Shown: one piece after another, positions 40,011 through 55,214 of the stretch | Numbering within the stretch: position 1 is the stretch's first letter | How the letters are laid out: each line of letters opens with the position of its first letter | Source: Malikia spinosa | GTDB taxonomy: Bacteria; Pseudomonadota; Gammaproteobacteria; Burkholderiales; Burkholderiaceae_C | Reading direction: 5' to 3' | Assembly (NCBI RefSeq): GCF_002980625.1 | Contig: NZ_PVLR01000007.1 | Location: 1 to 64,000, forward strand | Length of the DNA stretch: 64,000 bases | Position numbers and translations under genes: made by a program | The notes under the pieces: model-generated | Databases searched by the model: none | What the model saw: only the letters and a program-made list of their open reading frames with translations | What the model was told of the DNA's origin: nothing

Positions 40011-41111
40011 TCAGTGGTGATGCCCATGATCGTGCCCGTAGCCATCCCGTGAACGATGCAGAGGAGGGTGGCGTCTGTCAGGTCCGGCCTGCCAGTCACC
40101 ACAGGGCTGGGTAAACGGCGCATTCACCACTTGCAAGGTGGCGTGAGTGATCTCGAAGCGCTCATGCAGTTGCCCGGTGGCCTCTTGCAGGAATGCATCG
40201 TCGGCCTGTCCGCTGGGCATCACCAGCTGCGCTGTCAGGGCCACCCGCGAGGTGTCGATGGCCCAGATGTGCAGGTCATGGACCCGGCTGATGCCCGGCA
40301 GGCTCGCCAGGTAGTCGTGCACCGCCTGCGGGTCCACGCGGTCCGGCACGCCGTCAAACAGCAGATGCAGGGATTGCCGGAACAGGCTCCAGGTGCCCCA
40401 GAGGATCACGACGGCAATCAGCAGGCTGACCACCGGGTCGAGCCAGTTCCAGCCCATCCACAAGGTGAGCGCGCCCGCTATGACCACTCCCAGCGACACC
40501 AGGGCATCGGCTGCCATGTGCAGGAAAGCGCCCCGGATGTTCAGATCCTTCTCGCGCCCGCGCATGAACAGCAGGGCGGTCGCGCTGTTGATCACGATGC
40601 CGACACCGGCCACCGCCATGATCGTCACGCCCTCATTGCCGAGCAGCAGGTCAGGCGACATCAGTCGCCCCACGGCCTCCCAGACCAGCGCCCCCATCGC
40701 CATCAGCAGCAGCAAGGCGTTGGCAAACGCTGCCAGGATGCTGCCCTTCTTCCAGCCATAGGTGTGGCGCGGGTCGGGTCTGAGCCTGCCGGCCAGTGCA
40801 CCGCCCCAGGCCAGCACCAGGCCCGCGACATCGCTCAGGTTGTGGCCGGCATCGGCCAGCAAGGCCAGCGAATTGATTTTCCAGCCGTAGAACGCTTCGA
40901 TGGCCACGAAGACGATGTTCAGGCCGATGCCGATGGCAAACGCCTGGTCGAAGCTGGCCGGAGCATGGGCGTGCTGATGCCCCTGTCCGTGGCCATGGCC
41001 ATGACCATGACCATGACCATGACCATGACCATGACCATGACCATGACCATGACCATGACCATGACCATGACCAGCGTGAGGCGAGTGAGGTTCGGAATGG
41101 GGATGGCTCAT
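40011..41111 (-). CDS. Cation diffusion facilitator with His-rich N-terminus (CzcD/DmeF-like)
   Basis: 366 residues. An extended Gly-His repeat at about residues 14-45 precedes six transmembrane helices. The metal-site motifs are DAGHNLSDVAGLVLAWGGA (helix 2) and HMAADALVSLGVV (helix 5). A cytoplasmic C-terminal domain has VHDLHIWAIDTS, and the protein ends in GHDHGHHH. CDF proteins export Zn, Co, Cd or Ni by proton antiport. The start MSHPHSEPHSPH at 41111 is chosen over a longer open frame because it begins the His-rich tail and gives a normal length. It follows the DUF2703 gene by 44 bases on the same strand. Confidence 0.9.
   Translation of the reverse strand: MSHPHSEPHSPHAGHGHGHGHGHGHGHGHGHGHGHGHGHGHGQGHQHAHAPASFDQAFAIGIGLNIVFVAIEAFYGWKINSLALLADAGHNLSDVAGLVLAWGGALAGRLRPDPRHTYGWKKGSILAAFANALLLLMAMGALVWEAVGRLMSPDLLLGNEGVTIMAVAGVGIVINSATALLFMRGREKDLNIRGAFLHMAADALVSLGVVIAGALTLWMGWNWLDPVVSLLIAVVILWGTWSLFRQSLHLLFDGVPDRVDPQAVHDYLASLPGISRVHDLHIWAIDTSRVALTAQLVMPSGQADDAFLQEATGQLHERFEITHATLQVVNAPFTQPCGDWQAGPDRRHPPLHRSRDGYGHDHGHHH
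41000..41071. repeat. 12 perfect tandem copies of the hexanucleotide catgac
   Basis: Seventy-two uninterrupted bases of period six inside the CDF gene, encoding alternating His and Gly (minus strand). Flanking imperfect units (catggc at 40994-40999) extend it. A period of six keeps the frame whatever the copy number, so slippage would lengthen or shorten the His tract without inactivating the gene. Confidence 0.95.
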
Positions 41112-41155
41112 GGCTGGGTTGCCGCCGTTGCTGGCGCGGTGGTCGCAGTTTTTCT

Positions 41156-41620
41156 TCAGTAGCAGCAGCCGCCAGAACCGCAGCCGCTCGCGGGCTTGCC
41201 GCTGCCGGCAGCGGCCTGGCTGCCGGGCTCCGGCTCCAGCAGGCGGATGCCGGCCTTGAGTCCGGCCCGCACCAGCAGTTCCTCGGGGATCACTTCGTAG
41301 GACCGGCCTTCGAGTTCGAGCGTGCGGCAGTCCTGGTCGCCGCATTCGTCGCAGCAGCGGCTGGCGCCGGCCTGACCATCGAGCCAGGCTTCGAGCGGCT
41401 GGCCGTCGACCCAGATCCGGTTCGACTCCGACGGCTGGTCCCGGAACGCCGTGGGGGCGAGCTCGCGGCACTCGAGCACCGGCTGCACGCCCAGCGGCTT
41501 GAGCACGCTGTCGAGCCGTTCGACCGCATGCCGGACGGCGTCACCCGTGCCTTTGCAGCGGGGACAGGTCTTGCCCTGGTCGTTGACCAGGCGTTGCCAG
41601 ACGATGGACAGGGTTTTCAT
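41156..41620 (-). CDS. DUF2703 cysteine-rich protein
   Basis: 154 residues. The family pattern is plain: KTLSIVWQRLVNDQGKTCP, then CxxC in CPRCKGTG, ESNRIWVDGQPLEAWL, a CCDECGDQDC cluster and YEVIPEELLVRAGL. The C-terminus adds a Gly/Ser/Cys tail ending CGSGGCCY. DUF2703 proteins have a thioredoxin-like look and often neighbour arsenic or mercury genes, but no function is established. Twelve cysteines in this small protein suggest metal or metalloid binding. Start at 41620 follows AGGAGA; the open frame begins 11 codons earlier. Probably co-transcribed with the CDF gene. Confidence 0.85.
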   Translation of the reverse strand: MKTLSIVWQRLVNDQGKTCPRCKGTGDAVRHAVERLDSVLKPLGVQPVLECRELAPTAFRDQPSESNRIWVDGQPLEAWLDGQAGASRCCDECGDQDCRTLELEGRSYEVIPEELLVRAGLKAGIRLLEPEPGSQAAAGSGKPASGCGSGGCCY

Positions 41621-41738
41621 CGGATTCTCCTTTGCACAAAGCGACAGGTTCAAATTTTCGATTTCAACAATAGGCTACATTAGGATATTTTTCAGCTGCG
41701 GATCAAGATTCCGTCATAAAAGATTCTCCCTGACCGCT

Positions 41739-43124
41739 GTGATCAGAACAGTTCTCGTCTGTCTCTTCGTCTGGTTTCCCATTCTGGCTGTCTCGGCTGA
41801 AGCCGCGCCAGGGATCGGCCTCACGGCACAGCAAAAAGCCTATCTGGCTCAGGCAGGAACCATCCGCATGTGCGTGGATCCCGACTGGATGCCGTTCGAG
41901 CGCATCAACGGGGCGGGCCGGCATGAGGGCATCGCCGCCGACCTGATCCAGTTGGTCGCACAGCGCGTCGGGCTCAAGATCGAATTGCATCCGGTCAGCA
42001 CCTGGCAGGAAAGCCTGGAGGCATCGAAGGCCGGTGTCTGCCAGATCATGAGCTTTCTCAACCAGACGCCGGAGCGCGAGCAATGGCTGATCTTCACCTC
42101 CGCCATCTTCTTCGATCCGAATGTCATCATCACCCGCGAAGAGCACCGCTACATCGGCGATCTCAAGGGGCTGTCGGGCGAGTCGGTGGCCTTGCCGCGC
42201 GGCACCATGGTCGAGGAGCGCATCCGGCGCGAATATCCGAACCTGAGGCCGATCCTGACCGGCAGCGAGTCTGAATCCGTCAAGCTGGTCTCCGAGCGCC
42301 AGGCAGACCTGACCATCCGCTCGCTGATCGTGGCGGCCTATGCGATCAAGAAGGAAGGCCTGTTCAACCTGAAGATCGCGGGCCATGTGCCTGAATTCAC
42401 CAACCAGCTGCGCATCGGCGTGGTCAAGCACGACAGGGTCCTGCGTGACATCCTGGACCAGGGCGTCAAGACCCTGACGCCGGAGGACCGCGAGGCGATA
42501 TCGAACCGGCATGTCGTGATCCAGGTTCAGCAGGGCTTCGATTACCGGCTGGTCTGGAGAATCCTGGCCGGTAGCGCCCTGATCCTGCTGGTCAGCCTGT
42601 TCTGGATCAGGAAGCTGCGCGCGCTGAACCGCGAACTCGAGCGCCTGTCCATCACGGACCGCCTGACTGGCTTGCACAACCGCCTGAAGCTGGACATGGT
42701 GCTGGAGGCCGAGATCCTGCGCGCGATCCGATCCGGTCATTGCTTCAGCGTGATCCTGATCGACATCGATCATTTCAAGCGGATCAACGACCAGCATGGT
42801 CATCCGACCGGCGACCTGGTGCTGGTAGACCTGGCGCAATTGCTGCGCGCCGGCACGCGCGCCACCGATTTTGTCGGCCGCTGGGGTGGCGAGGAGTTCC
42901 TGATCATCTGTTCGGACACCGATGGCGCCGGTGCAGCCAAGCTGGCCGAAACCCTGCGCCAGATCATCCAGGATCATCCCTTCCCGGTCGTGGAGCGGCA
43001 AAGCGCCAGCTTCGGCGTGACCTGCTTTGGCCCGGGCGACAGCGCCAGTGAGATCGTCTCCAGGGCGGACGCGGCGCTGTACCTGGCGAAAACTGCGGGC
43101 CGCAACTGCGTCAGGTCCGTCTAG
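41739..43124 (+). CDS. Periplasmic solute-sensing diguanylate cyclase (SBP_bac_3-TM-GGDEF)
   Basis: About 461 residues. A signal peptide is followed by an amino-acid-type periplasmic binding domain (about 38-265; IRMCVDPDWMPFERINGAG, then TPEREQWLIFTSAIFFDP). One transmembrane helix (about 270-288) leads to a GGDEF domain with the active motif RWGGEEFLI. The inhibitory RxxD site is intact (RATD just upstream), so the enzyme is probably active and feedback-regulated. It makes cyclic di-GMP in response to a bound solute. The start is uncertain: GTG at 41739 precedes a well-formed signal peptide but has a weak ribosome site, and no good ATG exists nearby. Divergent from the DUF2703 gene. Confidence 0.85.
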   Translation: MIRTVLVCLFVWFPILAVSAEAAPGIGLTAQQKAYLAQAGTIRMCVDPDWMPFERINGAGRHEGIAADLIQLVAQRVGLKIELHPVSTWQESLEASKAGVCQIMSFLNQTPEREQWLIFTSAIFFDPNVIITREEHRYIGDLKGLSGESVALPRGTMVEERIRREYPNLRPILTGSESESVKLVSERQADLTIRSLIVAAYAIKKEGLFNLKIAGHVPEFTNQLRIGVVKHDRVLRDILDQGVKTLTPEDREAISNRHVVIQVQQGFDYRLVWRILAGSALILLVSLFWIRKLRALNRELERLSITDRLTGLHNRLKLDMVLEAEILRAIRSGHCFSVILIDIDHFKRINDQHGHPTGDLVLVDLAQLLRAGTRATDFVGRWGGEEFLIICSDTDGAGAAKLAETLRQIIQDHPFPVVERQSASFGVTCFGPGDSASEIVSRADAALYLAKTAGRNCVRSV

Positions 43125-43239
43125 CTTGAGCGGCGTGCCAGCCGGCGGCAGGGCCGGCACCGGATGCTCCTGGCGGGAGCCGCGGCCAGTCATGAGAGCG
43201 CAATCCGCACCGAGGGAGCTTTGAGCATCGCCAACGGCG

Positions 43240-43267
43240 AAAGTTCACAAAGTTCACGAAAGTTACA
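43240..43267. repeat. Three direct repeats of AAAGTTCAC
   Basis: AAAGTTCAC at 43240-43248 and 43249-43257, with a variant AAAGTTACA at 43259-43267, a 9-10 base period. They lie 113 bases or more upstream of the lipoprotein gene at 43380. Direct repeats at about one helical turn are typical of activator sites. The regulator is unknown. Confidence 0.45.
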
Positions 43268-43293
43268 CGCCTGACCCATACATTCGCGCAAGT

Positions 43294-43307
43294 CAAAAAG
43301 CTTTTTG
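43294..43307. promoter_or_regulatory. Perfect 14-base palindrome CAAAAAGCTTTTTG
   Basis: CAAAAAG followed directly by CTTTTTG, 72 bases before the lipoprotein start codon, in the 255-base gap after the diguanylate cyclase gene. The low GC of the stem argues against a terminator. It could be an operator. The rest of the 43125-43379 gap shows no gene. Confidence 0.35.
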
Positions 43308-43379
43308 TCCCTTTTCGAGCCGGCTGCAGGGCTCGGATCGAAATTGCCGATGTCCCTCTATTCCACGGAGTCAAGGTTT

Positions 43380-43886
43380 ATGAACGCACCCAAGTTCCTC
43401 AAGCTCGCCATTGCCGGCAGCCTGATTTCCCTGCTCGCTGCCTGCGGTAGCGGCGACGACGATGTCGCCAGCGATGCCGACGCGCAATCGAGCTTCATCA
43501 GTGCCTACACCTCCGGCCTCGACACGCTCGGCAGCTATGCCGGTCTGGTCAGCAGCAAGTTCCGCGATCTGTTCGATGCCGGCTACACCGACAGCGGCAT
43601 GACCAAGGCTGACGTCGTGGCTGCCCTCGACAGCGAGATCACCGTTTCGCAGACTTCGCCTGACTTTGTCTTTCCCGCCTTCCCGATGGCCAAGCTCAGC
43701 AAGGCCAGCATCGGCAACTGCGACGCCGTCACCAAGATCTGCACCCTGACCGGCACGCTGAGCAACAGCGACGCCGATCCGACCGGTGCCGACGCCAGCG
43801 CCGTGACCGAAGTGAACTTCACGACCCAGGTCCGCCAGGACGCCGACGGCAAGGTCCGCCTGCTGGGCGACCAGAGCAAGAGCTGA
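43380..43886 (+). CDS. Hypothetical secreted lipoprotein
   Basis: 168 residues. A signal peptide (KFLKLAIAGSLISLLAAC) with lipobox LAAC is followed by an acidic linker GSGDDDVASDADA. The mature part has two cysteines (NCDAVTKICTLTG) that probably form a disulfide, and beta-rich hydrophilic sequence. I do not recognise a family. It is the first gene of a plus-strand run and precedes the DUF3604 gene by 35 bases; a set of direct repeats and a palindrome lie upstream. Confidence 0.8.
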   Translation: MNAPKFLKLAIAGSLISLLAACGSGDDDVASDADAQSSFISAYTSGLDTLGSYAGLVSSKFRDLFDAGYTDSGMTKADVVAALDSEITVSQTSPDFVFPAFPMAKLSKASIGNCDAVTKICTLTGTLSNSDADPTGADASAVTEVNFTTQVRQDADGKVRLLGDQSKS

Positions 43887-43921
43887 GACCCGTCCACCCC
43901 TTCATCCTGAAAAACCTAGCC

Positions 43922-46042
43922 ATGTCTAATCAGAATACCCTGCGCGACGTTGCCCTGGCTGCTGCCGCCCTGTGCGCGGCCATGAGCGTCATTGTTCCCG
44001 CCGTTGCCGCCGAGAAGGCCGCCACCAAGCCGGCTGGCACCTATGTCTCGGGCGACTTCCACAACCACACCACCTGCTCCGACGGCGCCCTGTCGCTGCA
44101 GCGGCTGGTCGACCGTTCGGTCAATGCCTACAGCCTGGACTGGTTCGTCCAGGCCGACCACGGCGGCAGCAGCGCGCGCAACTGCACCCTGCGCGAAGAC
44201 CCGTTCGAGCCGGTGGCCCCGGCCCTGGGCCTGAGCAGCAACTCGACCGGCCCCTACGGCGGCACGGTGACCTATCCCGCAGGTGGCCAGCCGGCCAGCA
44301 CCGGCAAGGGACCCAACATGAGCTGGCAGAGCACCTTGCCCAACGGCGTCGCCGACATCAAGGGCGATGGCACCGCGAACCCGAAGCGCATGTGGCGCTG
44401 GCAGGAAATCAAGGAATTCCAGTACCCGGTGCTGGAAGCCGAGAGCCGCAAGCACAACAAGCCGGTCTGGATCGGCCTCGAGACCAACAACCCGGGCCAC
44501 GAGCACACCTCGACCACCATCCTGACCGGCCAGCTGCCCTGGCCCAAGACCGGTGCCGGCAACGCCAACCTGATGGCCCAGTTCGAGTACTGCTTCGACC
44601 GCAGCGACACCGACACCAGCCGCGGTGCCGAGAACCAGTGGGATTGCTCGGTCAGCGGCAGCCCGAACAACAGCCTGATCGATCCGGTCTCCAGGAAGAT
44701 CGCCAAGGCAGGCAACCTGGGTGGCGGCAACAGCGCGGCCAACCCCGACCTCGGCCACATCAAGTCGGTCGAGGCCGTCAAGTGGATGAACGAGAAGGCG
44801 CCCAACACCAGCTTCTACGTGCCGGCCCACCTTGAGCGCGCTGGCGTCTACAACCCGACGGCCAACCGCGGCTTCAACATCGAGCATCTGCGCAACTTCA
44901 ACAACGCAGCGCCGCGCATCGCCTTTGGTTTCGAGTCCATGCCTGGCCACCAGGCGCAGGAAGACCGTGGCGGTTATGGCACCGGCGCAGCCGGTGGCGG
45001 CACCTTCGGTGGCTCCGGCGCCTATGCCGGCCTGATCGGCGGCGTCTGGGATGCCCTGCTCGGTGAAGGTCGCAACTGGTTCTTCTTCGCCAGCTCCGAC
45101 TATCACAACCGTGGCAGCTTCGGTGCCGATCAGCGCGAAACCAACTCGGACTTCTTCCCGGGCGAGTACACCAAGGACCATGTCATGGTGCGCAAGGGCA
45201 AGGGCGACCTGACGGCCGAAGGCATCATCGACGGCCTGCGCAGCGGCAACAGCTATGTGGCCAACGGCGACGTGATCGACCGCCTGTCCTTCGTGGTCTG
45301 CACCGCCAACCCGGGTCTGCCGATCAAGGCCAACCAGGCACTGATCGAGAAGGCTGCCGCCAACGCCGTCGCCAACAAGGGCGAAGTGCGCATCGATGGT
45401 TGCGCCACCATGGGTGAAAAGCTGTTGGCCCGTCCGGGTGCCGACCTGATCGTGGCCGTGGCGGTGCGCGACCCGCAGGGCAAGAACAACTCGCCCTACA
45501 GCTTCCCGAACCCCTCGCTCAAGCAGATCGGCGTCACCCAGCCGCTGGACAAGCCGGAACTCGACCACGTCGACCTGATCGGCGGCCTGGTGACCGGTTA
45601 TGTCTCGCCCGCCGACACGGCACGCTACGCCGGCCCGATCGGTTCTGAAGCCGCCAGCAACAAGTCGGCCAAGATCCTGAAGGTCTTCAACAAGACCAAC
45701 TGGACCGCAGGCAACGACGGCGTGCGCACCATGAGCTACCGTGTCCCGGCAGTCAAGGCGTCGCAGTACATGCGCCTGCGCGGCACCAACCTGCCGGCCG
45801 CCACCCCGTTCGAGACCGATGCACAGGGCAACCCGCTGTCCGACTGGGAGGCCAGCCCGGTCGACCAGACCGTCAAGGGCAACATCGCCTGTGCTGACGC
45901 CGCCTGCCCGCCGCACATGCGCACGGTCGCTGGCGTCAAGTATTCGAGCTTCGACGTCGCTGCCTGGTCCGACCTGTGGTTCTACAGCAACCCGGTCTTC
46001 GTCGAGGTGATCAACGGCGTCAAGGTCGCGGGCGTCAAGTAA
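43922..46042 (+). CDS. DUF3604 exported protein (PHP-like metal-site domain)
   Basis: 706 residues with a Sec signal peptide (cleavage likely after AVAA near residue 30). DUF3604 begins with GDFHNHTTCSDGALSLQRLVDR and continues with DWFVQADHGG. These resemble the HxH and H metal ligands of PHP phosphoesterases. Later motifs include WIGLETNNPGHEHTS, FYVPAHLERAG and FFASSDYHNRGSFG. The protein is periplasmic or secreted. The family is annotated only as a domain of unknown function. Here it heads a set of envelope genes (MFS-spermidine synthase, PpiC-like, HupE/UreJ). A terminator-like hairpin follows its stop. Confidence 0.88.
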   Translation: MSNQNTLRDVALAAAALCAAMSVIVPAVAAEKAATKPAGTYVSGDFHNHTTCSDGALSLQRLVDRSVNAYSLDWFVQADHGGSSARNCTLREDPFEPVAPALGLSSNSTGPYGGTVTYPAGGQPASTGKGPNMSWQSTLPNGVADIKGDGTANPKRMWRWQEIKEFQYPVLEAESRKHNKPVWIGLETNNPGHEHTSTTILTGQLPWPKTGAGNANLMAQFEYCFDRSDTDTSRGAENQWDCSVSGSPNNSLIDPVSRKIAKAGNLGGGNSAANPDLGHIKSVEAVKWMNEKAPNTSFYVPAHLERAGVYNPTANRGFNIEHLRNFNNAAPRIAFGFESMPGHQAQEDRGGYGTGAAGGGTFGGSGAYAGLIGGVWDALLGEGRNWFFFASSDYHNRGSFGADQRETNSDFFPGEYTKDHVMVRKGKGDLTAEGIIDGLRSGNSYVANGDVIDRLSFVVCTANPGLPIKANQALIEKAAANAVANKGEVRIDGCATMGEKLLARPGADLIVAVAVRDPQGKNNSPYSFPNPSLKQIGVTQPLDKPELDHVDLIGGLVTGYVSPADTARYAGPIGSEAASNKSAKILKVFNKTNWTAGNDGVRTMSYRVPAVKASQYMRLRGTNLPAATPFETDAQGNPLSDWEASPVDQTVKGNIACADAACPPHMRTVAGVKYSSFDVAAWSDLWFYSNPVFVEVINGVKVAGVK

Positions 46043-46113
46043 GTCCATTTGAGCGCCGGGCCAGCCCTGGCGACCGGATCCGGCCTGATGGCCGGGTCCG
46101 GCCGATTTGACCC

Positions 46114-46134
46114 GACCGGCGCTTGGCGCCGGTC
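46114..46134 (+). terminator. Terminator-like hairpin after the DUF3604 gene
   Basis: GACCGGCGC (46114-46122) pairs perfectly with GCGCCGGTC (46126-46134) around TTG, followed by TTCCCTTTTCTTG. It lies 72 bases past the DUF3604 stop and 22 bases before the next start, so it probably reduces rather than abolishes read-through into the downstream genes. Confidence 0.6.
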
Positions 46135-46155
46135 TTCCCTTTTCTTGTTGCATTC

Positions 46156-48795
46156 ATGACTAGTCTTGCGGGCGTTTCCCGTGTTGCGTTGCCGGCGGAC
46201 CGTATCGGTGGCAGGCAGCTGGCCGGCCTGCTGCTGGCCCTGGCGTCGGGCGCCTGCGGCCTGGCCTGGCAGTTCATCTGGACCCAGCAGTTGTCCAACA
46301 GCCTGGGCCACGAGATCGTGGCGGTGCTGGCGGTGCTGGGGGCTTTCTTTGGCGGTCTGGCCATCGGGGCCTGGGCCCTGCGCCGGGTCATCGAGCGTTC
46401 GGCCCGGCCGGCGCTCTGGTATGGCGGCCTGGAGCTGCTGATCGCGGGCTGGGGTCTGGGCTTGAGCCTGCTGCTGCCGGTGCTGACGCCTGGTCTGGGC
46501 CAGCTGATCGGCGCCGAGCCCTCGGCCTGGCGCCATTGGGGCCTGGCCTTCTTCCTGCCCTTGCTGTTGCTGCTGCCGGTCACGGCGGCCATGGGCGCGA
46601 CCTTGCCGGCGCTCGAGCGCTGCTGGCGCGGTGCTGGATCCTCGCTGCTGAGCGCCCTCTATTCAGCCAATACCCTGGGTGCCGTGCTCGGCACGCTGGG
46701 CGTCGTCTTCGTCGCCATTCCGCAGCTGGGCCTGCAGGCCACGGCGCTGGCCTGTGCGGCGCTCAACCTGCTCTGTGGCCTGTCTGCGCTGGCGCTGAAC
46801 CGGGGCCAGCGCATGGCCGTCGCCCCGGCCGCGGCTGCGGCACCGGCCTCGGCCGGCGGGGTTGCCGCAGCGGAAATCAGCCGCCGGCATTTGCTGCTGC
46901 TGTTGGCCGGATCGGGCTTGCTCGGCATTGGCTACGAGGTGCTCGCGGTCCGGGTGCTGAGCCAGGTGACCGAGAACACGGTCTACAGCTATGCGCTGCT
47001 GCTGGCGGTCTACCTGCTCGGCACCGCCGCCGGGGCCGCCTGGCACCAGCAGGCCCGGGGCCGACTGGACGCCGGCCAGGCTGGCCTGGCGCGCCTGCTC
47101 GGCTGGCTGGTGCTGGCCACGCTGGCCGGTGGCCTCAGCCTGTGGGCGGCCGACCGGATCGTGCTCCTGCCCGCGCGCTGGTTCGGTCCCGGCGCGGCTG
47201 CGGCGCTGGCCGGCGAGGCGCTGGCGGCAGCCTTCTCCATGGGGCCGCCGACCTGGGTCATGGGGATCGTCTTTGCCCAGCTCTGCCATCTGGCGCGTGC
47301 CAATCAGATGACGCTGGGCGGCGCACTGGCGGTCAACACTGCAGCGGCCGCCCTGGCGCCCTGGCTGATCGGCGTCGGGCTGATTCCGCTGCTGGGCGCG
47401 CGCGGCGCCTTGCTGCTGATCGCTGCCGGCTACCTGGCGCTGATGCCCGGTCTTTGGCGCCGTGGCAGCGGCTTCTGGTTGCCGCTGGTCCTGCTGGTGC
47501 TGCTGGCAGCGCTGACCCCGCCGTTGCGCTTTGTCGATCTGCCGCCCGGTGGCCGCGTGCTGAGTTACCGCGATGGCGTGATGGCAGCGGTCAGCGTGGT
47601 CGAGGACGGACGGGGCGTGGCGCGCCTGCACATCAATAACCGGGTCCAGGAGGGCAGCAGTGCCAGCGGCGCGATCGAGAGGCGCCTGGCCCTGCTGCCG
47701 CTGCAGCTGCATCCGAAGCCGCAGCGGGCGCTCTTCCTGGGCTTGGGCACGGGCTTTACGGTGCAGGTCGCGGCGCGCGATCCGGGCTTGCAGGTCGATG
47801 GCGTCGAGCTGCTGCCCGAGGTGATCGAGGCCGCGCCGCTGTTTGCCCGCGCGCAAAACGGCCAGTCGTCCGGTTCGTCTGCACTGGAGCGGGTGCATGC
47901 GGTGGCGGCCGATGCGCGCCGTTATGTGCTGGCGGCGCCGCAGCGCTATGACGTGGTGATCGCCGACCTGTTCCATCCGGCGCGCAGCGGTGCCGGTGCG
48001 CTCTACACGCGCGAGCATTTCGCTGCCGTGCGCGACCGGCTGGCGCCCGGCGGCCTGTTCTGCCAGTGGCTGGCCTTGCACCAGATGGATGTCGAGACCC
48101 TGCGCAGCATCGTGGCGGCCTACCTGGCGGTCTTCCCCGACGGCAAGGCGGTGCTTGCCAGCAACAGCCTCGACACCCCGGTGCTCGGCCTGGTGGCAAG
48201 TCCGGGCAGGCCGCGTTTCGAGCTTGATGCCTTGCGCGCCCGCCTGGCGCCGCCCCAGCCCGAACTGCGCCAGCTGCTGAGCAGCGCCGGCCTCGAGGAC
48301 GAATTCGGCTTGCTTGGCTCGGCCCTGGCCGGCAGTCAGAGCTTGCAGCGTTTCGCCCAAGGCGCCGCGGTCAACAGCGATGACCGTCCCTTCGTGACGC
48401 ACCGCGCGCCCTGGGCCACCTATGCCCCGGCCAGCACGCCGCGCCAGCGCCTGCACGAACTGATTTCGAGCTGGAGCGTCGAGCCTGGCGAATGGCTGCA
48501 GCCCGCCGACCCGGTCTTCGAGCAGCGCTTGCAGCGCTACTGGGACGTGAGGCGGCGCTACCTCGAGCTCGGTCTGGCGACCGCACCCGATCCCGATCCG
48601 GTCGTGATGCTGGACCGGCTGCAGCAACCGCTGCTCGGCCTGCTGCGCGACAGCCCCGAATTCCGGCCGGCTACCGATCCCTTGCGCGCTCTTGCTGCCG
48701 CCATTCGCCCGCGCGATCCCGGCCGCGCGGACGAACTGCTGCGCCAGCTCGAGCGCCTGCAGCCCCAGCGACCAGATGCGGCCATCCGGCGCTGA
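46156..48795 (+). CDS. Fused MFS-like transporter / spermidine synthase-like protein
   Basis: 879 residues. The N-terminal part (about 15-465) has around 12 or more hydrophobic segments, beginning GLLLALASGACGLAWQFIWTQ. A short beta region then leads to a spermidine-synthase-like Rossmann domain (about 480-720). It has ALFLGLGTGFTVQVAARD (SAM-type loop near 528), the acidic VDGVELLPEVIEAA and ADLFHPAR (near 603) at the catalytic position. A C-terminal helical tail of about 130 residues follows. Such fusions are common in bacteria, but none has a firmly known product. Polyamine aminopropyl transfer is possible but unproven. ATG 46156 is preferred to an upstream TTG. Confidence 0.87.
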   Translation: MTSLAGVSRVALPADRIGGRQLAGLLLALASGACGLAWQFIWTQQLSNSLGHEIVAVLAVLGAFFGGLAIGAWALRRVIERSARPALWYGGLELLIAGWGLGLSLLLPVLTPGLGQLIGAEPSAWRHWGLAFFLPLLLLLPVTAAMGATLPALERCWRGAGSSLLSALYSANTLGAVLGTLGVVFVAIPQLGLQATALACAALNLLCGLSALALNRGQRMAVAPAAAAAPASAGGVAAAEISRRHLLLLLAGSGLLGIGYEVLAVRVLSQVTENTVYSYALLLAVYLLGTAAGAAWHQQARGRLDAGQAGLARLLGWLVLATLAGGLSLWAADRIVLLPARWFGPGAAAALAGEALAAAFSMGPPTWVMGIVFAQLCHLARANQMTLGGALAVNTAAAALAPWLIGVGLIPLLGARGALLLIAAGYLALMPGLWRRGSGFWLPLVLLVLLAALTPPLRFVDLPPGGRVLSYRDGVMAAVSVVEDGRGVARLHINNRVQEGSSASGAIERRLALLPLQLHPKPQRALFLGLGTGFTVQVAARDPGLQVDGVELLPEVIEAAPLFARAQNGQSSGSSALERVHAVAADARRYVLAAPQRYDVVIADLFHPARSGAGALYTREHFAAVRDRLAPGGLFCQWLALHQMDVETLRSIVAAYLAVFPDGKAVLASNSLDTPVLGLVASPGRPRFELDALRARLAPPQPELRQLLSSAGLEDEFGLLGSALAGSQSLQRFAQGAAVNSDDRPFVTHRAPWATYAPASTPRQRLHELISSWSVEPGEWLQPADPVFEQRLQRYWDVRRRYLELGLATAPDPDPVVMLDRLQQPLLGLLRDSPEFRPATDPLRALAAAIRPRDPGRADELLRQLERLQPQRPDAAIRR

Positions 48796-48857
48796 GCGCT
48801 GCCCGGTTCTTGCTTCTTCTTGACTGTTTTCCAATCTCATCACCCATCGGTCCCTGA

Positions 48858-49691
48858 ATGAAATCGACATCAGTGAATTCCATCCGACTGCAGACTGCGT
48901 TGCGCGAGCCGTTGCTGCATTTCCTGATCCTGGGCGCGGCCATTTTCGGCGTCGACCAATGGCGCAATGCCGGCAGTGAAACTGCCAGCGACATCGTCGT
49001 GACGGCCAAGGTCCAGCAGGAAGCCAAGGCCATCTTCGAGGCCGGCATGAAGCGCGAACCCAAGCCGGAAGAGCTCAAGGTGCTGCTCGACCGCTGGGTC
49101 GACAACGAGATCCTCTACCGCGAGGGCTTGCAACTGGGGCTGGACCGGGGTGACTCGGGCATCCGCGACCGCGTGATCTTCAAGGCCATGAGCGTGACCC
49201 AGGCTGGCATCGTGCTGCCCGAAGTCGATGAAGCCGGTCTCAAGGCCTGGTTCGAGTCGAACCGCGAGCGCTACGACACCCCGGCCCGCTTCGATTTCCT
49301 GGAAGCCGCTGTGCCGCCGGATACCAAGCTCGACGCCCTGCAGCGCTTTGCCGTGGCACTCAACAGCAACCAGGACGAGCCCGGCATCGAGAGCAGCCTG
49401 CGCGTGTTCCGTGACCGTCCGCGCTCCAACCTGCTGCAGAGCTATGGCAAGGACTTTACCGAGGCGATCGAGCAGCTCAAGCCCGGTCAATGGCAGGTTC
49501 TGGTCAGCAACGACGGGCCGCGCGTGATCCGGCTCGAAAGCCTCAAGCCGGCCGTCGCCGCCGACTTCGAGGCGGTCAAGGTCAAGCTCTATCAGGACTG
49601 GAAGGATGAGATGACTTCGCAGCGCTCCAAGGAGCTGATCCGCGAAATGGGCAAGAAGTACCAGATCCGCCAGGAAAGCCTGCCGTCATGA
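48858..49691 (+). CDS. Membrane-anchored PpiC/SurA-like protein, degenerate parvulin domain
   Basis: 277 residues. One N-terminal transmembrane segment (PLLHFLILGAAIFGVDQW) is followed by a SurA/PpiD-type helical chaperone region (about 45-125, KPEELKVLLDRWVDNEILYRE). A C-terminal parvulin-like region ends in IEQLKPGQWQVLVSNDGPRVIRLES. The GGDLGW loop usual in active parvulins is not visible, so isomerase activity is doubtful and a chaperone role more likely. Its stop overlaps the HupE/UreJ gene start by four bases (ATGA), so it probably helps fold or assemble that protein or another exported member of the cluster. Confidence 0.8.
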   Translation: MKSTSVNSIRLQTALREPLLHFLILGAAIFGVDQWRNAGSETASDIVVTAKVQQEAKAIFEAGMKREPKPEELKVLLDRWVDNEILYREGLQLGLDRGDSGIRDRVIFKAMSVTQAGIVLPEVDEAGLKAWFESNRERYDTPARFDFLEAAVPPDTKLDALQRFAVALNSNQDEPGIESSLRVFRDRPRSNLLQSYGKDFTEAIEQLKPGQWQVLVSNDGPRVIRLESLKPAVAADFEAVKVKLYQDWKDEMTSQRSKELIREMGKKYQIRQESLPS

Positions 49692-50671
49692 GTGCCCGCT
49701 TCTTGCGTTCGCATCTTGCGGCCCGCTTGCTGGGCTGCCTGCTGTTGCTGTGTGCCGCTCTGGGACTGTCGCCGGCCCAGGCCCACGAGATGACCATTGC
49801 CGAGCTGACGGTGCGCGAGTCGGCGACCGGCAGCTATTTCTATGCCTGGGGCGTGCCGGCCAAGGTCACCCCGGTGGCCGAGGATCTGTCGCTGCGCTGG
49901 CCCGAAGGCTGCGAGGCCTCGGACCAGTCCGTCAGCTGCGGTCCGCAGGGACTCTACGGCCAGCTCGAGGTCGAGGGCTTGGGCAAGGTCTACTCGGCCG
50001 TGCTGCTGCGCGTGCACTGGCGCAGCGGCGAGAGCCAGGTCATCACGCTGACCTCGAACCAGCCACAGACCCGACTGTTCGGCGGTGCCAAGGACGAGCG
50101 CGGTGCCGGCGAGATTGCCTCGGCCTACACGGTGCTCGGGGTGCAGCATATCCTGTCGGGTTACGACCACCTGCTGTTCGTGATCAGCCTGCTGATGCTG
50201 GTCGGTTTCCAGCGTCGCCTGGTCATGACCATCACCGCCTTCACCGTGGCGCACAGCCTGACCCTGGGCGCCAGCGCGCTGGGCTGGCTGACGCTGCGCT
50301 CGGCGCCGGTCGAGGCCTCGATCGCCTTGTCGATCCTGCTGGTCTGCGGCGAGGCGCTGCGCCAGCGCGAGACCCTGGCCCGGCGCTGGCCCTCGCTGGT
50401 GGCCTTCCTGTTCGGGCTGGTGCACGGCCTGGGCTTTGCCGGTGCCCTGCGTGCGATCGGCCTGCCCGAGCAGCATTTCAGCGTCGCGCTGCTGACCTTC
50501 AACCTGGGCGTCGAGATCGGCCAGCTGCTGGTCGTGCTGGCCTGCTGGCTGCTGATGCTGCTGGCTGGCCGTTGGCTGAGGGCCAGCCGGCTCAGGCAGC
50601 CGCTGCTCTATGCGACCGGCAGCATCGCGGCCTACTGGTCGATCGCGCGGCTGGCCGCCATCATCTCCTGA
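49688..50671 (+). CDS. HupE/UreJ family membrane protein with periplasmic N-terminal domain
   Basis: 327 residues. A signal peptide ends at AQAHE (about residue 34). An extracytoplasmic beta-rich domain of about 110 residues precedes a C-terminal HupE/UreJ_2 membrane domain with six or seven helices. Family histidines are present in QHILSGYDHLLFVISLL (near 153), TVAHSLTLG and GLVHGLGFAGAL. HupE/UreJ proteins carry nickel or cobalt where tested; the long C-terminal type has no proven substrate. It overlaps the PpiC-like gene and is followed by a TIGR02466 gene. Confidence 0.87.
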   Translation: MSARFLRSHLAARLLGCLLLLCAALGLSPAQAHEMTIAELTVRESATGSYFYAWGVPAKVTPVAEDLSLRWPEGCEASDQSVSCGPQGLYGQLEVEGLGKVYSAVLLRVHWRSGESQVITLTSNQPQTRLFGGAKDERGAGEIASAYTVLGVQHILSGYDHLLFVISLLMLVGFQRRLVMTITAFTVAHSLTLGASALGWLTLRSAPVEASIALSILLVCGEALRQRETLARRWPSLVAFLFGLVHGLGFAGALRAIGLPEQHFSVALLTFNLGVEIGQLLVVLACWLLMLLAGRWLRASRLRQPLLYATGSIAAYWSIARLAAIIS

Positions 50672-50684
50672 TCCGGAGGGCCTG

Positions 50685-51308
50685 ATGAGCGACCTGTTCG
50701 AGCTTTTTCCGACCCCGGTCCTGCGCGTGCCGCGGCTGCTTGACGACAGCGGTGTGCGCGCGTTCAGGCAGCGCTTCGCGCCCGCTGCGGGGCAGCTCAA
50801 TCACCACTCCGGCGAGCTGTCGCATTCGCAGATCCTGGCGGCGGACGCTGATCCGCTGCTGGCCGAGCTGAGCGCCCGTCTGACGCCGCACCTGGCCGAA
50901 TTCGGCACCCATCTGTTCGGCCAGTCGCTGCACTGGACCATCAAGGAGATGTGGCTCAACGTGATGCAGACCGGTGGCCGCCAGGCCATCCATACCCACG
51001 CGAACTCCTTCGTCTCGGGTGTGCTGTACCTGAGCGATTGCCATCCGTCCTCCAACACCCTGTTCATCCGCAGCCTGGGCGGGCAGGGCTATGTGTTTGC
51101 CAACACCCACGCCAATGCGGCGGTCGGGCCCTTCAACGCCGACAAGTGGCGCGGTCCCGATCCGGCACCGGGCGACCTGATCCTGTTCCCCAGCTCGCTG
51201 CTGCACGAAGTGCCGGTCAACCGCGGCGGACTGCGCGTGACGCTGGCCTTCAACGCGATCCCGGACCGGCTCGATGCCTGGGGTTACGCCATCACTTTCG
51301 GCCGCTGA
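50685..51308 (+). CDS. TIGR02466-type putative 2OG-Fe(II) oxygenase
   Basis: 207 residues. It begins LFELFPTPVLRVP, has the double-stranded beta-helix motif IHTHANSFVSGVLYL (HxH near residue 105), later LILFPSSLLHEVPVN with a third histidine, and RVTLAFN with the likely co-substrate arginine. This matches TIGR02466, related to prolyl-4-hydroxylase-like 2-oxoglutarate/Fe(II) enzymes, whose substrates are unknown. A metal ligand normally acidic appears as His-x-His here. It lies 13 bases after the HupE/UreJ gene with a CGGAGGG ribosome site, so it is co-transcribed. Confidence 0.82.
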   Translation: MSDLFELFPTPVLRVPRLLDDSGVRAFRQRFAPAAGQLNHHSGELSHSQILAADADPLLAELSARLTPHLAEFGTHLFGQSLHWTIKEMWLNVMQTGGRQAIHTHANSFVSGVLYLSDCHPSSNTLFIRSLGGQGYVFANTHANAAVGPFNADKWRGPDPAPGDLILFPSSLLHEVPVNRGGLRVTLAFNAIPDRLDAWGYAITFGR

Positions 51309-51353
51309 CCGCCGCCAGCGGCCAAGCCAGCAGAACGCTCACCAGGACTATCC

Positions 51354-51776
51354 ATGAAAATCAAACAATCGATCGTTGCCGGCCTGCTGGGCTGGATCGC
51401 CCTGGCGGGAACGGTTTCTGCGCATGAATACTTTGCACCCAATTTCGTGCTGTTCCACCCCTGGGCCGTGGCGAGCCAGGACGGGCAGACCGATGTACCG
51501 GTCTACTTCACCACGCGCGAAGTCGAGGAGGGCGACCGCCTGCTGCGCGCCTACTCGCCGATCGCCGAGTCGGTGGCCTTCGTCTCGGCCGATACCCAGC
51601 CGCTGGAGGGCCTGGAGCTGAAGGCTGGCGATGGCGAGCAGTTCTTTGCCACCGAACCGCACCTGCTGCTCAAGGGCCGCAAGCAGGACATTCACTGGGG
51701 GCGCAACTACCCGCTGGTGCTGGTGTTCGAAAAGGCCGGCATGATGAACGTCTCGATCTCGGTCGGCACCCCCTGA
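51354..51776 (+). CDS. Periplasmic PCu(A)C-like protein with degenerate copper site
   Basis: 140 residues with a signal peptide ending in VSAHE (near residue 24). The mature sequence follows the PCu(A)C chaperone pattern: PVYFTTREVEEGDRLLRAYS, PIAESVAFV, then EPHLLLKGRKQDIHWGRNYP and LVLVFEKAGMMNVSISV. In copper-binding members the ligands are an H(M)Xn set plus HxM. Here the first His is replaced in AFV, and the HLMLM-type motif reads HLLLK, so most Met ligands are lost. It may bind another metal or serve structurally. The assignment was made by eye, and I am moderately sure. Confidence 0.65.
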   Translation: MKIKQSIVAGLLGWIALAGTVSAHEYFAPNFVLFHPWAVASQDGQTDVPVYFTTREVEEGDRLLRAYSPIAESVAFVSADTQPLEGLELKAGDGEQFFATEPHLLLKGRKQDIHWGRNYPLVLVFEKAGMMNVSISVGTP

Positions 51777-51780
51777 TCTC

Positions 51781-51814
51781 CCTGAGTCTGGCGGGCGGGT
51801 CCGACCGCCTCAGG
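51781..51814. terminator. Possible bidirectional terminator
   Basis: CCTGAG (51781-51786) and CTCAGG (51809-51814) enclose GGCGG/CCGCC in the 33-base gap between two convergent genes. No T-run on either side, so confidence is low. Confidence 0.35.
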
Positions 51815-52439
51815 AGCGCCGTTTCCTGGCCTGGAACGGCGCGACCGAGTCGCCGCTCAGCGTGTAGCCCGATGCGCCTTGTTCGGTCTTCGAGTGCTGG
51901 ACCCGGATCAGTCCGGTCACCGCCACGCTGTCCATCAGCTTGATTTCCTTCGAGGGCGTGGCCAGCTTGACATGCACGATCTGGTTGGCCGGCGGCGGCG
52001 GCGTGTGGATGCAGGCGCCGTAATAAGGCACCAGCAGGAATTCCCGTACCATGCCTTGCGAGCCGTCCAGCGGCACGACGAAGCCCGTCATGCGCACGCG
52101 CTGGCGGTCGAGCGAGCTCTCGACCGGCGCCTGCTCCCAGGCCTGTTGCAGGCGCTTGAGCGCCTCGGCCGCGCGCGGGTCGGCATCGCTCAGCGCGGAA
52201 AAGTCCAGCCCCTCGAAGGCCTGGGCCGGGTTCCAGTTCTTGGGCATCAGGGCATTCCAGCCCAGGCTGCGGTAGCTGTCGGCCTCGGTGCTGGCGGCGA
52301 CTTCCGGCAGCCGTTCGCCGAGCTGGTAGCGCGGCTGGGCCTGGATTTGCGCCTGGGCCTGGGCGGTACCGATCAGGCCGGCCAGGCTCAGCGCGCAGCC
52401 CAGCAGGAGCGGGCGCGCATGGGTCAGCAGATTTTTCAT
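51810..52439 (-). CDS. DUF3299 periplasmic protein
   Basis: 209 residues with a signal peptide (LLLGCALSLAGLIGTAQAQ). The mature part carries the DUF3299 core VRMTGFVVPLDGSQGMVREFLLVPYYGACIHTPPPPANQIVHV, read here in two pieces at about 115-160. An OB-like fold is likely. This family typically lies beside FtsX-type permease and LolD-type ATPase genes plus a DUF2796 protein, as here. In Vibrio cholerae a comparable set (Zrg) is zinc-regulated and supports zinc uptake, as I recall. Last gene of a four-gene minus-strand operon; 12 bases after the permease gene. Confidence 0.85.
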   Translation of the reverse strand: MKNLLTHARPLLLGCALSLAGLIGTAQAQAQIQAQPRYQLGERLPEVAASTEADSYRSLGWNALMPKNWNPAQAFEGLDFSALSDADPRAAEALKRLQQAWEQAPVESSLDRQRVRMTGFVVPLDGSQGMVREFLLVPYYGACIHTPPPPANQIVHVKLATPSKEIKLMDSVAVTGLIRVQHSKTEQGASGYTLSGDSVAPFQARKRRS

Positions 52440-52451
52440 GACGATCAGGAT

Positions 52452-53714
52452 TCAGAGTCTGGGCATCAGCCCGTCCGACAGGGTCAGCCGGGCGGCGCGC
52501 CAGGCCGGCAGCAGGGAAGCGCACAGCCCGGCCAGCAGCACGCCGGCCAGCAGCTTGAGCTCGCTCGCTGGGGAGCCCCAGGCTGGCAGCGTCAGCCCGA
52601 GCTCGGCCTGGGTCCAGCTGGCGGCTGCCTGTGCGGCCAGGCCCAGCATCAAATAGCCCAGCAGCGCGCCGGCCAGCGAGAGCAGCAGGCCTTCGAGCGC
52701 CAGCAGGGCAACGATGTGACGCCGGCCCGCTCCGACCGAGCGCAGGATGGCGAGTTCGCGCCGCCGTTCGCCCAGGCCGGCCCAGACGATGGCGACCATG
52801 GTGCTGAGTCCCATCGCGAGCACCAGCAGCGAGACGCCCGCGAGCGTCTGCTCGACCACGCCCAGCATGTTCCAGAGCTGATCCAGCGCCACGCCGGGCA
52901 GCACGGCCTGCAGCGCCTCGTAGGGATACTGGTGCAGCGCGCGCTGCAGCCGGAACACCCCGGCGCGGTTCTCGAGCCCGACCAGTGCGGCGGTGACCCG
53001 CTTGGGCTGGAGGTCGAACTTCTGCACGAACCGGGCCGGAATGTTGAGGCCGGGCAGCGGCGCGCCGCCCTGCCAGCCCAGATGGATAGCCTCCAGCGCC
53101 TGCAGGCTCACATGCAGGGTCCGGTCGACCGGGGTGCCGGTGCGTGCCAGCAGGCCGACCACCTCGAACGGCAGGTCCTCGTGGCTTGCCAATGCCTCTG
53201 GCCCCTGGCCGTGGCTCAAGGCCAGCTTGTCACCCAGCTTGTAGCCGAGCTGGCGCGCTACCTCGGCGCCGATCACGACCTCGAACAGCTGCTCGAAGCG
53301 CCGGCCCGATGCCAGCACCAGCGGCAGCTGGTCGCCGTAGTGCAGGTGCTCGAAGTAGTCCTGGTTGGTGCCGAGCACTGGAAAGCCCTGGTGCGAGTCG
53401 CCCAGGGTCAGCGGAATCACCCAGGCCACGGCCGGATCATCGCGCAGCCGCTGGTAGCTGTTCCAGCTCATGTCGTGGCTGGCCTCGCCGAGGCGGAACA
53501 CCGAATACAACAGCAGCTGCAAGGGGCTGCCGCGCGCGCCGACGATCAGGTCGGTGCCAGCGATCGATTGCTCGAAGCCCTGCTTGGCGGCATCGCGCGC
53601 GCGCTCCACCCCCAGCAGCATCGCTACGCTGAGCGACAGCGCGACCAGGGTCAGGCCCAGGGTGTGACGCCGGTTCCAGGCGCTTTGCAGCGCCAGCCAG
53701 AGCATCGCCTTCAT
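52452..53714 (-). CDS. FtsX/MacB-type ABC transporter permease
   Basis: 420 residues. An N-terminal transmembrane helix (about 17-37), a large periplasmic MacB-PCD-like domain (about 40-270) and three C-terminal helices with an FtsX domain (about 285-410; LSTMVAIVWAGLGERRRELAILRSVGAGRRHIV) are seen. This is the topology of type VII ABC systems (LolCE, MacB, FtsX), which work from the inner membrane on periplasmic cargo rather than by channel transport. The ATPase partner is the next gene upstream, overlapping by four bases. Zinc acquisition is inferred from the DUF2796 partner. Confidence 0.88.
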   Translation of the reverse strand: MKAMLWLALQSAWNRRHTLGLTLVALSLSVAMLLGVERARDAAKQGFEQSIAGTDLIVGARGSPLQLLLYSVFRLGEASHDMSWNSYQRLRDDPAVAWVIPLTLGDSHQGFPVLGTNQDYFEHLHYGDQLPLVLASGRRFEQLFEVVIGAEVARQLGYKLGDKLALSHGQGPEALASHEDLPFEVVGLLARTGTPVDRTLHVSLQALEAIHLGWQGGAPLPGLNIPARFVQKFDLQPKRVTAALVGLENRAGVFRLQRALHQYPYEALQAVLPGVALDQLWNMLGVVEQTLAGVSLLVLAMGLSTMVAIVWAGLGERRRELAILRSVGAGRRHIVALLALEGLLLSLAGALLGYLMLGLAAQAAASWTQAELGLTLPAWGSPASELKLLAGVLLAGLCASLLPAWRAARLTLSDGLMPRL

Positions 53715-54439
53715 GAGCGGCTTCCTGGGGCTGAACGGACCGGCGGCTGCAGCTCAAGGCAGCGGTCGAAGCGGCTGGCCAGCGAGCGGTCATGGCTCAC
53801 GAACAGCAGCGCGCTGCGCGCACGCCTCGACTCCTCGGACAGCAGCTCGAGGAAGGCATGCTGGCTGTCGCCATCCAGCGCCGAGGTCGGCTCGTCGGCG
53901 ATCAGCAGCTCCGGGCAGCCGATCAGCGCCCGTGCCGCCGCCACCCGCTGTTGCTGGCCGACCGACAGTTCCATCGCCTGGCGCCGGGCCAGCGCCGGGT
54001 CCAGTCCGAGTCGGTCGAGCAGGCGCTGCGCCGAACGCCGCGGATCGGCGTCGAGCTGGCGCGCGCGTTCGGCACGCCGGGCGGAAAAGCGGCAGGGCAG
54101 CAGCACATTGTCCTCGACGCTCAGATAGGGAATCAGGTTGAACTGCTGGAAGATGAAGCCGATATGGTCGCCGCGCAGCCGGTCGCGCTGCTGCCGGCCC
54201 AGGTTCACCAGGTCGCGCCCGAGCAGCCTGATGCTGCCCTGCTGGGGCAGATGCACGCCGCCGAGCAAGCCCAGCAGGCTGCTCTTGCCGCAGCCGCTCG
54301 GGCCGCAGACGAACAGCGATTCGCCCGCCGCCAGGCTCAGCGCCTCGATGTCGAGCAGCGGCGCGCTGCGGCTGTCCCAGCCGAAGCGCAGCGAGGCGAC
54401 CTGCAGCAGCGGCCCTTGCGGTGTCGCGCTGTCGCTCAC
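53711..54439 (-). CDS. LolD/MacB-type ABC transporter ATP-binding protein
   Basis: 242 residues. Walker A is GPSGCGKSSLLGLLGG, the Q-loop is GFIFQQFNLIPYLSV, the signature LSVGQQQRVAAARAL (SVGQQ rather than the usual SGGQQ), Walker B LLIADEPTSALD, and the switch His is in FVSHDRSL. These are the traits of LolD-like ATPases that pair with FtsX-fold permeases. It overlaps both neighbours by four bases (DUF2796 upstream, permease downstream), so all are translated together. Confidence 0.92.
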   Translation of the reverse strand: MSDSATPQGPLLQVASLRFGWDSRSAPLLDIEALSLAAGESLFVCGPSGCGKSSLLGLLGGVHLPQQGSIRLLGRDLVNLGRQQRDRLRGDHIGFIFQQFNLIPYLSVEDNVLLPCRFSARRAERARQLDADPRRSAQRLLDRLGLDPALARRQAMELSVGQQQRVAAARALIGCPELLIADEPTSALDGDSQHAFLELLSEESRRARSALLFVSHDRSLASRFDRCLELQPPVRSAPGSRS

Positions 54440-55026
54440 CAGCTGATCCCGGGCTGGCTCGGCGTGAGCCGGTGCAGGCCCTGGCCGCGCCCCGTGGCCC
54501 GCTCGACCTCGATCCGGCGCAATTTGCCAAAGCTCTTGAAGGCTCCGGTTTGCAGGCGGCGCAGTTGCTCGGGCTGGGCGCAGGCGTAGCGGTATTCGGC
54601 CAGCAGGTCGCCGTGTGCGTCGTTCTGCGCGGGTCGGGCAGCGCCGCGGCTGGAGTCAAGCGGGCTTCTGGTTCCAGCCGCTGTCTGTGGCTCTTGCAGC
54701 AGTTCGGCTGGCAGCGCGCCCGAGCTGATGTCCATCCCTTCGAGCCGGCATTGCGCCGCCGGGCTCAGCGTGAACAGGCTGTCGGCCTGGCGCAGGCCTT
54801 GGCCGAGCCGGCGCACGGCTTCGCGTTCGGCGGCATTGCGCGGGCCATGCTCGAAGCCCAGCAACGCTTCGAGCGGGCTGTCGAGCGTGAGCGTCAGCCG
54901 CGGACCATCGAGCGCGAGTTGCAGGCTGGCATGTCCATGCACATGGGCGCCCGGTGCTGCGCGGGCGCCGTCCAGTGGCAGCAGCAGGGCGATCAGGAGG
55001 GCCAGGGGCCAGCGGCTTGGTGTCAT
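54436..55026 (-). CDS. DUF2796 (ZrgA-like) periplasmic zinc-associated protein
   Basis: 196 residues. A signal peptide (PLALLIALLLPLDGARA) is followed by APGAHVHGHASLQLALDG, the His motif diagnostic of DUF2796/ZrgA. Later come LFTLSPAAQCRLEG and YRYACAQPEQL, which give two cysteines for a probable disulfide. V. cholerae ZrgA is a periplasmic protein of a zinc-regulated ABC system. The start at 55026 (MTPSRWPLALL) is chosen because it opens the signal peptide; the frame is open 43 codons further into the intergenic region. First gene of the ABC operon, divergent from a HupE/UreJ gene. Confidence 0.85.
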   Translation of the reverse strand: MTPSRWPLALLIALLLPLDGARAAPGAHVHGHASLQLALDGPRLTLTLDSPLEALLGFEHGPRNAAEREAVRRLGQGLRQADSLFTLSPAAQCRLEGMDISSGALPAELLQEPQTAAGTRSPLDSSRGAARPAQNDAHGDLLAEYRYACAQPEQLRRLQTGAFKSFGKLRRIEVERATGRGQGLHRLTPSQPGISW

Positions 55027-55117
55027 CGGCAATATCCAGGAATCTCGGGGTGCTTGGCCGGGGTGGCGTTTCTGGCTCTCGGCCAGGGCTGCATCGCAGA
55101 CCAGTTTATGGCGGCAT

Positions 55118-55137
55118 GATTTCAGCTCGATGAAATC
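55118..55137. promoter_or_regulatory. Putative operator: perfect inverted repeat GATTTCA-N6-TGAAATC
   Basis: 7-base half-sites at 55118-55124 and 55131-55137, in the 188-base gap between the divergent ABC operon and the HupE/UreJ pair. A dimeric repressor bound here could control both. It does not match the common Zur core (GTTAT-N3-ATAAC), so the regulator is open. The gap holds no gene I can support. Confidence 0.5.
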
Positions 55138-55214
55138 GGTAGCGGGCGGATTCATGCAATATTCACGCGAGCGACTTACCCTTCATGCGCTTGAAACTTT
55201 CCCCCTTGTCCGTC

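Follow-up and report, generated by a model that had tools for sequence, protein, structure and literature searches.

A conserved Burkholderiales gene cluster around a putative secreted PHP-superfamily hydrolase, with a possible role in phosphorus scavenging

Organic phosphorus ranks among the main sources of nutrients in fresh water and soil; much of its enzymology has been assigned to PhoX, PhoD, PhoA and PafA. CehA and McbA, relatives with the PHP fold, are known as hydrolases of carbaryl and carbofuran. Here, we analysed a stretch of 64,000 nucleotides from Malikia spinosa (contig NZ_PVLR01000007.1, positions 1 to 64,000; hereafter the window), which carries a cluster of seven genes on the plus strand at 43380-51776. 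The second gene encodes a predicted secreted PHP-superfamily protein (protein 2), accompanied by a PpiC-like foldase, a HupE/UreJ_2 permease and other envelope proteins. This gene set has apparently not yet been described as a system in the open literature searched. An earlier note, made from the sequence alone, had proposed an undescribed envelope system that might serve metal acquisition or metal-dependent modification. Our analysis upholds the gene set and finds it conserved; its role probably concerns phosphate and not the acquisition of metals.

The source genome belongs to the Comamonadaceae, and among named relatives that have the cluster, Malikia granosa is the closest. Scanning a species-level genome collection with protein 2 gave 27 loci, and tblastn with the window proteins recovered the seven genes in identical order and strand in loci of the Variovorax, Polaromonas, Comamonas, Limnohabitans and Herminiimonas types, some of which lack the PCuAC-like gene. 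Five genes form a core, encoding the PHP hydrolase, the PpiC-like foldase, HupE/UreJ_2, a 2-oxoglutarate (2OG)-Fe(II) oxygenase and a membrane spermidine-synthase-like (SpdSyn) protein. The core is complete in 42 of the 49 PHP-bearing loci and thereby in all 42 that can be evaluated, since in the other seven the contig breaks off inside the cluster or immediately behind it. The earlier note had named a lack of clustering in every other genome among the grounds against its reading; the opposite was found, and the clustering of the core genes is far above chance. In distant families the genes stand in a different order and are often split between two divergent halves, PHP-PpiC-HupE and 2OG-SpdSyn. 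The 15 new loci from other genera behave likewise. As the core is kept despite this rearrangement, the cluster is maintained by selection and not by inertia. Frequent additions among the 49 PHP-bearing loci are the lipoprotein (24), the PCuAC-like protein (28) and a TonB receptor (13). The distribution is patchy: matches occur in 13 of 250 Burkholderiales genomes, four of the 13 being short partial matches, and in 18 of 201 genomes of the own family, and the PpiC match is absent in two of the four other genomes of the genus.

The operon heads of most Burkholderiales loci carry PHO boxes, for example at L022:7838 and L193:4950. Units of such boxes are spaced by 11 bp, and the heads of the relatives' operons have CTGTCAY units at exactly this spacing, as in the E. 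coli type. The motif was fixed beforehand from general knowledge and left unchanged for the 15 new loci; the PHO box unit is given as CTGTCAT (PMC4415409). The combined p is 3e-13 for spacing 11, whereas spacings 8-10 and 12-14 yield 6e-5 to 3e-2; as the loci share common ancestry, these values overstate independence. The same kinship holds for the permutation and spacing controls, which nevertheless fail to score. In 15 of 28 loci the upstream region holds the best two-unit box found anywhere in the locus, compared with a mean of 1.7 for column-permuted motifs. In the independent set this box stands at an operon head in 13 of 15, a score reached by 0 of 100 permuted motifs. As a positive control, the identical motif found a PHO box at pstS of the source genome. 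In one Polaromonas copy (L020), the alkaline phosphatase gene phoX lies directly downstream on the same strand. A scan of the upstream regions of 22 loci for palindromes or Zur-type sites found no shared palindrome.

All seven plus-strand ORFs (open reading frames) that the earlier note had described as closely spaced are present. Families were assigned by Pfam and NCBIfam profile searches against the model cut-offs, and the locus reads as follows.

43125..43379, plus strand: operon upstream region with gttcac direct repeats; the equivalent place has PHO boxes in relatives
43380..43886, plus strand: small lipoprotein with lipobox LAAC and a conserved Cys pair, C114/C121
43922..46042, plus strand: predicted secreted PHP-superfamily metallohydrolase with C-terminal Ig-like domain (protein 2; predicted fold, profile matches, invariant ligands)
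46156..48795, plus strand: fused membrane (MFS-like)/spermidine-synthase-like protein, SpdSyn (NF037959 above cut-off, PF01564)
48858..49691, plus strand: membrane-anchored periplasmic PpiC-type (Rotamase_2) foldase (PF13145)
49688..50671, plus strand: HupE/UreJ_2 permease with periplasmic N-terminal part and HX5DH metal motif (PF13795)
50685..51308, plus strand: 2OG-Fe(II) oxygenase-like protein (PF13759, near TIGR02466)
51354..51776, plus strand: exported PCuAC-like protein without copper-ligand methionines (PF04314)

By their coordinates, the lipoprotein and PHP genes are separated by about 35 bp, PHP and SpdSyn by about 113 bp (SpdSyn ATG at 46156), SpdSyn and PpiC by 62 bp, HupE and 2OG by about 13 bp, and 2OG and PCuAC by 45 bp; PpiC and HupE overlap by 4 bp. 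The repeats upstream of the lipoprotein gene, gttcac-aaa-gttcac-gaaa-gttacac at 43243-43268, are spaced by 9-10 bp, and this spacing excludes them as a PHO box. Just upstream of the cluster, a periplasmic solute-binding-like domain is fused to a GGDEF diguanylate cyclase (41451-43124, plus). On the minus strand lie a CDF-type metal transporter (40011-41471), which has a long run of Gly-His repeats close to its N-terminus, and, convergent with the cluster, a Zrg-type zinc-uptake operon of DUF3299, FtsX-like permease, ABC ATPase and ZrgA genes (51810-55155).

Protein 2 had been labelled DUF3604, and that label had to be given up. It has no match to Pfam DUF3604 (PF12228, cut-off 20.4 bits) at E 0.1, and true DUF3604 proteins of the triads described below score 670-808 bits. 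Its best NCBIfam match, CehA/McbA (NF038032), reaches 43.4 bits, under the cut-off of 80, which leaves it outside that family as well. A poor early AlphaFold2 model from 12 sequences (predicted local distance difference test, pLDDT, 46) was discarded; a model from a 26-sequence alignment has pLDDT 81 and a predicted template modelling score (pTM) of 0.85. VIA-align, run on candidates supplied by Foldseek, superposed its residues 39-450 on the PHP phosphoesterase TM0559 (2anu) with Z 14.9 and a root-mean-square deviation of 3.0 over 202 residues. The next-best match has Z 8.5, and Foldseek by itself found nothing significant in the PDB for this model. PHP structures also rank first in a sequence-profile search. 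The C-terminal part resembles Ig-like domains at an ordinary level (Z about 7.5-8.5). H47, H49, D54, H80, E187, H193, H195, H303, D393 and H395 are unvaried in the covering sequences (33-34 of 36), eight Cys are invariant or nearly so in the alignment, and the N-terminus is signal-peptide-like. As modelled, protein 2 adopts a PHP fold in which the set of metal ligands is intact; its largely invariant Cys and its ligands fit a putative secreted, disulfide-bonded metalloenzyme. The region after the PHP core aligns with the DUF3604 profile (hhalign 75.5% over 88 columns). Protein 2 is a remote relative of DUF3604 that holds the place of DUF3604 beside PpiC-HupE. In three loci without the lipoprotein, a PEP-CTERM-type exported protein adjoins the PHP gene (L058:10728-11369, L059:8041-8688 and, below cut-off, L060:2349-3038).

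The earlier labels SpdSyn, PpiC-like and HupE/UreJ all stood, with model scores above the cut-offs: 57.8 bits for SpdSyn (NF037959, cut-off 40; also PF01564), 49.9 bits for the predicted PpiC-type isomerase (Rotamase_2, PF13145, cut-off 27) and 151 bits for HupE_UreJ_2 (PF13795, cut-off 24.5). H154, D160, H161, H189, H246 and E276 of the HupE-like protein are invariant in 31 of 31 sequences, as is the HX5DH motif. Following the neighbourhood comparison that the earlier note had suggested, we searched 299 Pseudomonadota genomes and found the PpiC subfamily at 18 places in 15 genomes besides the source genome. A HupE_UreJ_2 gene adjoins it on the same strand at all 18 places, and a true DUF3604 gene is present in 15 of the 15 PpiC-bearing genomes as against 2 of 284 others (Fisher p 2e-23). 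The DUF3604-PpiC-HupE link is therefore real and general across Pseudomonadota. Of 19 PpiC-HupE loci inspected, the 18 places plus one whose PpiC is weaker, 17 have DUF3604 as a direct neighbour; an 18th has a DUF3604 remnant, and in the last the gene lies about 40 kb away. The conserved metal motif of HupE and its exclusive pairing with PHP-type secreted proteins support a maturation role. HupE together with a peptidylprolyl isomerase was not found in the open literature searched, in which DUF3604 is named by one paper. PHO boxes were also sought at these triads, which are widespread in alpha- and gammaproteobacteria (L123-L141) and serve as a negative control for the motif; none were found. 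The boxes are strong and specific to the Burkholderiales branch. In L131 (G430), the remnant has an internal stop, the PpiC-HupE pair next to it is intact, and a secreted MBL-fold-like protein is encoded close by. Four triads have related sulfatase-type proteins in their vicinity: L129 (Pfam-confirmed), L136, L138 and L139.

The SpdSyn-like gene is present in 46 of the 49 PHP-bearing loci, and the other three are cut by contig ends. The protein is membrane-embedded, the surroundings of its transferase site are conserved (N489, R490, Q492, E493, D598, H601), and its relatives outside Burkholderiales stand in unrelated gene contexts. For the oxygenase, the earlier note's assignment holds as to the Fe(II)-oxygenase domain (2OG-FeII_Oxy_5, PF13759, 70.1 bits, cut-off 27) and not as to TIGR02466, with 60.8 bits slightly under the cut-off of 62.5. 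Its residues H104, H106, H175 and R185 are conserved in every covering sequence. Given the strict presence of oxygenase and SpdSyn, a reaction or envelope change would need both. The lipoprotein matched no Pfam or NCBIfam family; its place is identical in most Comamonadaceae-type loci. The PCuAC-like protein meets the PF04314 domain (40.5 bits, cut-off 29.4). The copper ligand motif of PCu(A)C is H(M)X10MX21HXM. Across 18 aligned proteins of the cluster type, the ligand methionines are absent and no Met is conserved, while H24, H35 and H103 are kept. It is hence no copper chaperone of the ordinary kind, and its reading as a copper protein is not supported despite the domain match. A small exported family without a Pfam name (L013:17325-17810, L020:8894-9292, L198:2381-2641, L199:16257-16544) has members that replace the PCuAC-like gene in L013 and L020. 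In a Pfam tally of 91 flanking proteins, the TonB receptor alone recurred; it shows weak similarity to siderophore receptors.

Half of our confidence goes to the view that the cluster encodes a secreted PHP-fold metallo-phosphoesterase, together with the proteins for its maturation and for uptake, by which Burkholderiales scavenge phosphorus, although its chemistry is one that we infer. PhoB would switch on the operon under phosphate limitation. The PHP protein would be exported, oxidised and folded with the help of membrane-anchored PpiC, and loaded with a divalent metal handled by HupE in either transport direction; the metal is likely a cofactor. The mature enzyme would cleave an organic phosphoester, and the TonB receptor, in loci having one, would import its substrate or its product. 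Modification of substrate, product or an envelope component may fall to the oxygenase and to the aminopropyltransferase-like protein of the membrane. A wider proposal is more tentative: PpiC-HupE might be a dedicated foldase and metal-permease device that matures secreted PHP-fold hydrolases, DUF3604 in alpha- and gammaproteobacteria and a remote PHP family in Burkholderiales, where, under PhoB and with the oxygenase, the aminopropyltransferase-like protein and often a TonB receptor, it would form a previously unknown organic-phosphorus scavenging system.

Several observations weigh against phosphorus scavenging. Some PHP-fold relatives (CehA/McbA) hydrolyse carbamates or esters and are not phosphatases, and we infer phosphoesterase activity here. 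The reading gives no account of what the oxygenase and SpdSyn do. As the alpha- and gammaproteobacterial triads lack a PHO signal, PpiC-HupE is not phosphate-specific. The window's own operon has no recognisable upstream PHO box, its best site under a learned matrix ranking 57 in the window, where the pstS box of the source genome would rank 1, so that the regulation of this copy is drawn from relatives only, or has changed. At the heads of TonB-receptor genes the PHO signal is not clearly above other spacings, with no convincing boxes, and a search of the window's own genome, run without a positive control, found no member of the TonB receptor subfamily.

The same boxes at the operon heads would suit phosphorus-sparing envelope remodelling, in which the SpdSyn-like transferase, together with the 2OG oxygenase, would modify lipids or surface polymers to give amine-bearing, hydroxylated phospholipid substitutes, and recycling of phosphate head groups would be the task of the PHP enzyme. 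The membrane-embedded SpdSyn protein with its conserved transferase site fits, and 2OG enzymes hydroxylate aminolipids in other bacteria. We nevertheless think this unlikely: no lipid-related gene recurs in the flanks, the PHP protein is predicted to be secreted, and the TonB receptors point to uptake. Acquisition of a metal or metallophore, the main role envisaged in the earlier note, would have HupE import metal bound by exported proteins while the TonB receptor and oxygenase handle the carrier. The invariant HupE motif, the PF04314 match, the siderophore-receptor similarity of some TonB receptors and the adjoining ZrgA operon in Malikia speak for it. The phosphate reading is preferred because of the PHO boxes in relatives, the lack of a Zur-like palindrome and the PhoX neighbour; moreover, the PCuAC-like protein lacks copper ligands, the zinc operon was seen beside the cluster only in Malikia (L033), and no carrier-biosynthesis genes were recognised. 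Metal acquisition is thus distinctly improbable as the main role.

A secreted hydrolase of the CehA/McbA/DUF3604 type acting on a carboxyl ester, carbamate, sulfate or lactone, with PHO control as part of a general starvation programme, would agree with the weak CehA/McbA match and with the sulfatases beside triads that lack PHO boxes. The strength and Burkholderiales specificity of the boxes and the PhoX neighbour run counter to it, and we rank it a little below even the metal explanation. The unusual mixture of families and the patchy presence within the genus might suggest a chance neighbourhood of unrelated envelope genes, yet the core shared by every evaluable locus, rearranged ones included, already refutes this and leaves it hardly credible. 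The complete cluster occurs in many relatives from fresh water and soil. If phosphorus scavenging is correct, common Burkholderiales (Variovorax, Polaromonas, Limnohabitans, Leptothrix, Malikia) would have a fifth secreted system, of PHP fold, for which a marker gene would be gained. The DUF3604-PpiC-HupE triad, and HupE/UreJ_2 proteins without hydrogenase or urease beside them, would then have a role that can be tested for the first time.

Set against known systems, the cluster's HupE resembles HupE/UreJ nickel-cobalt permeases in its PF13795/PF04955 match and HX5DH motif, but differs in its periplasmic N-terminal part and its pairing with PpiC and a secreted PHP protein; no hydrogenase genes were seen near it, and urease is a neighbour in one locus (L056). 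Protein 2 shares the PHP-type motif region with CehA/McbA metallohydrolases, its best NCBIfam match, but stays outside them at 43 bits against a cut-off of 80. With the secreted phosphatases of the Pho regulon (PhoX, PhoD, PafA, PhoA) the cluster has in common the PHO boxes at relatives' operon heads, a predicted secreted metalloenzyme and one copy beside PhoX. Its putative phosphatase differs in having a PHP fold in place of the PhoX, PhoD or PafA folds and in the company of PpiC, HupE, oxygenase and SpdSyn. Like the alpha- and gammaproteobacterial DUF3604-PpiC-HupE triad, it places a secreted PHP-type HxH...DH protein, similar to DUF3604 in the region after the PHP core, beside a PpiC-HupE pair; unlike the triad, it has no PF12228 match, adds SpdSyn, 2OG, lipoprotein and PCuAC-like genes, and in its Burkholderiales version alone carries PHO boxes.

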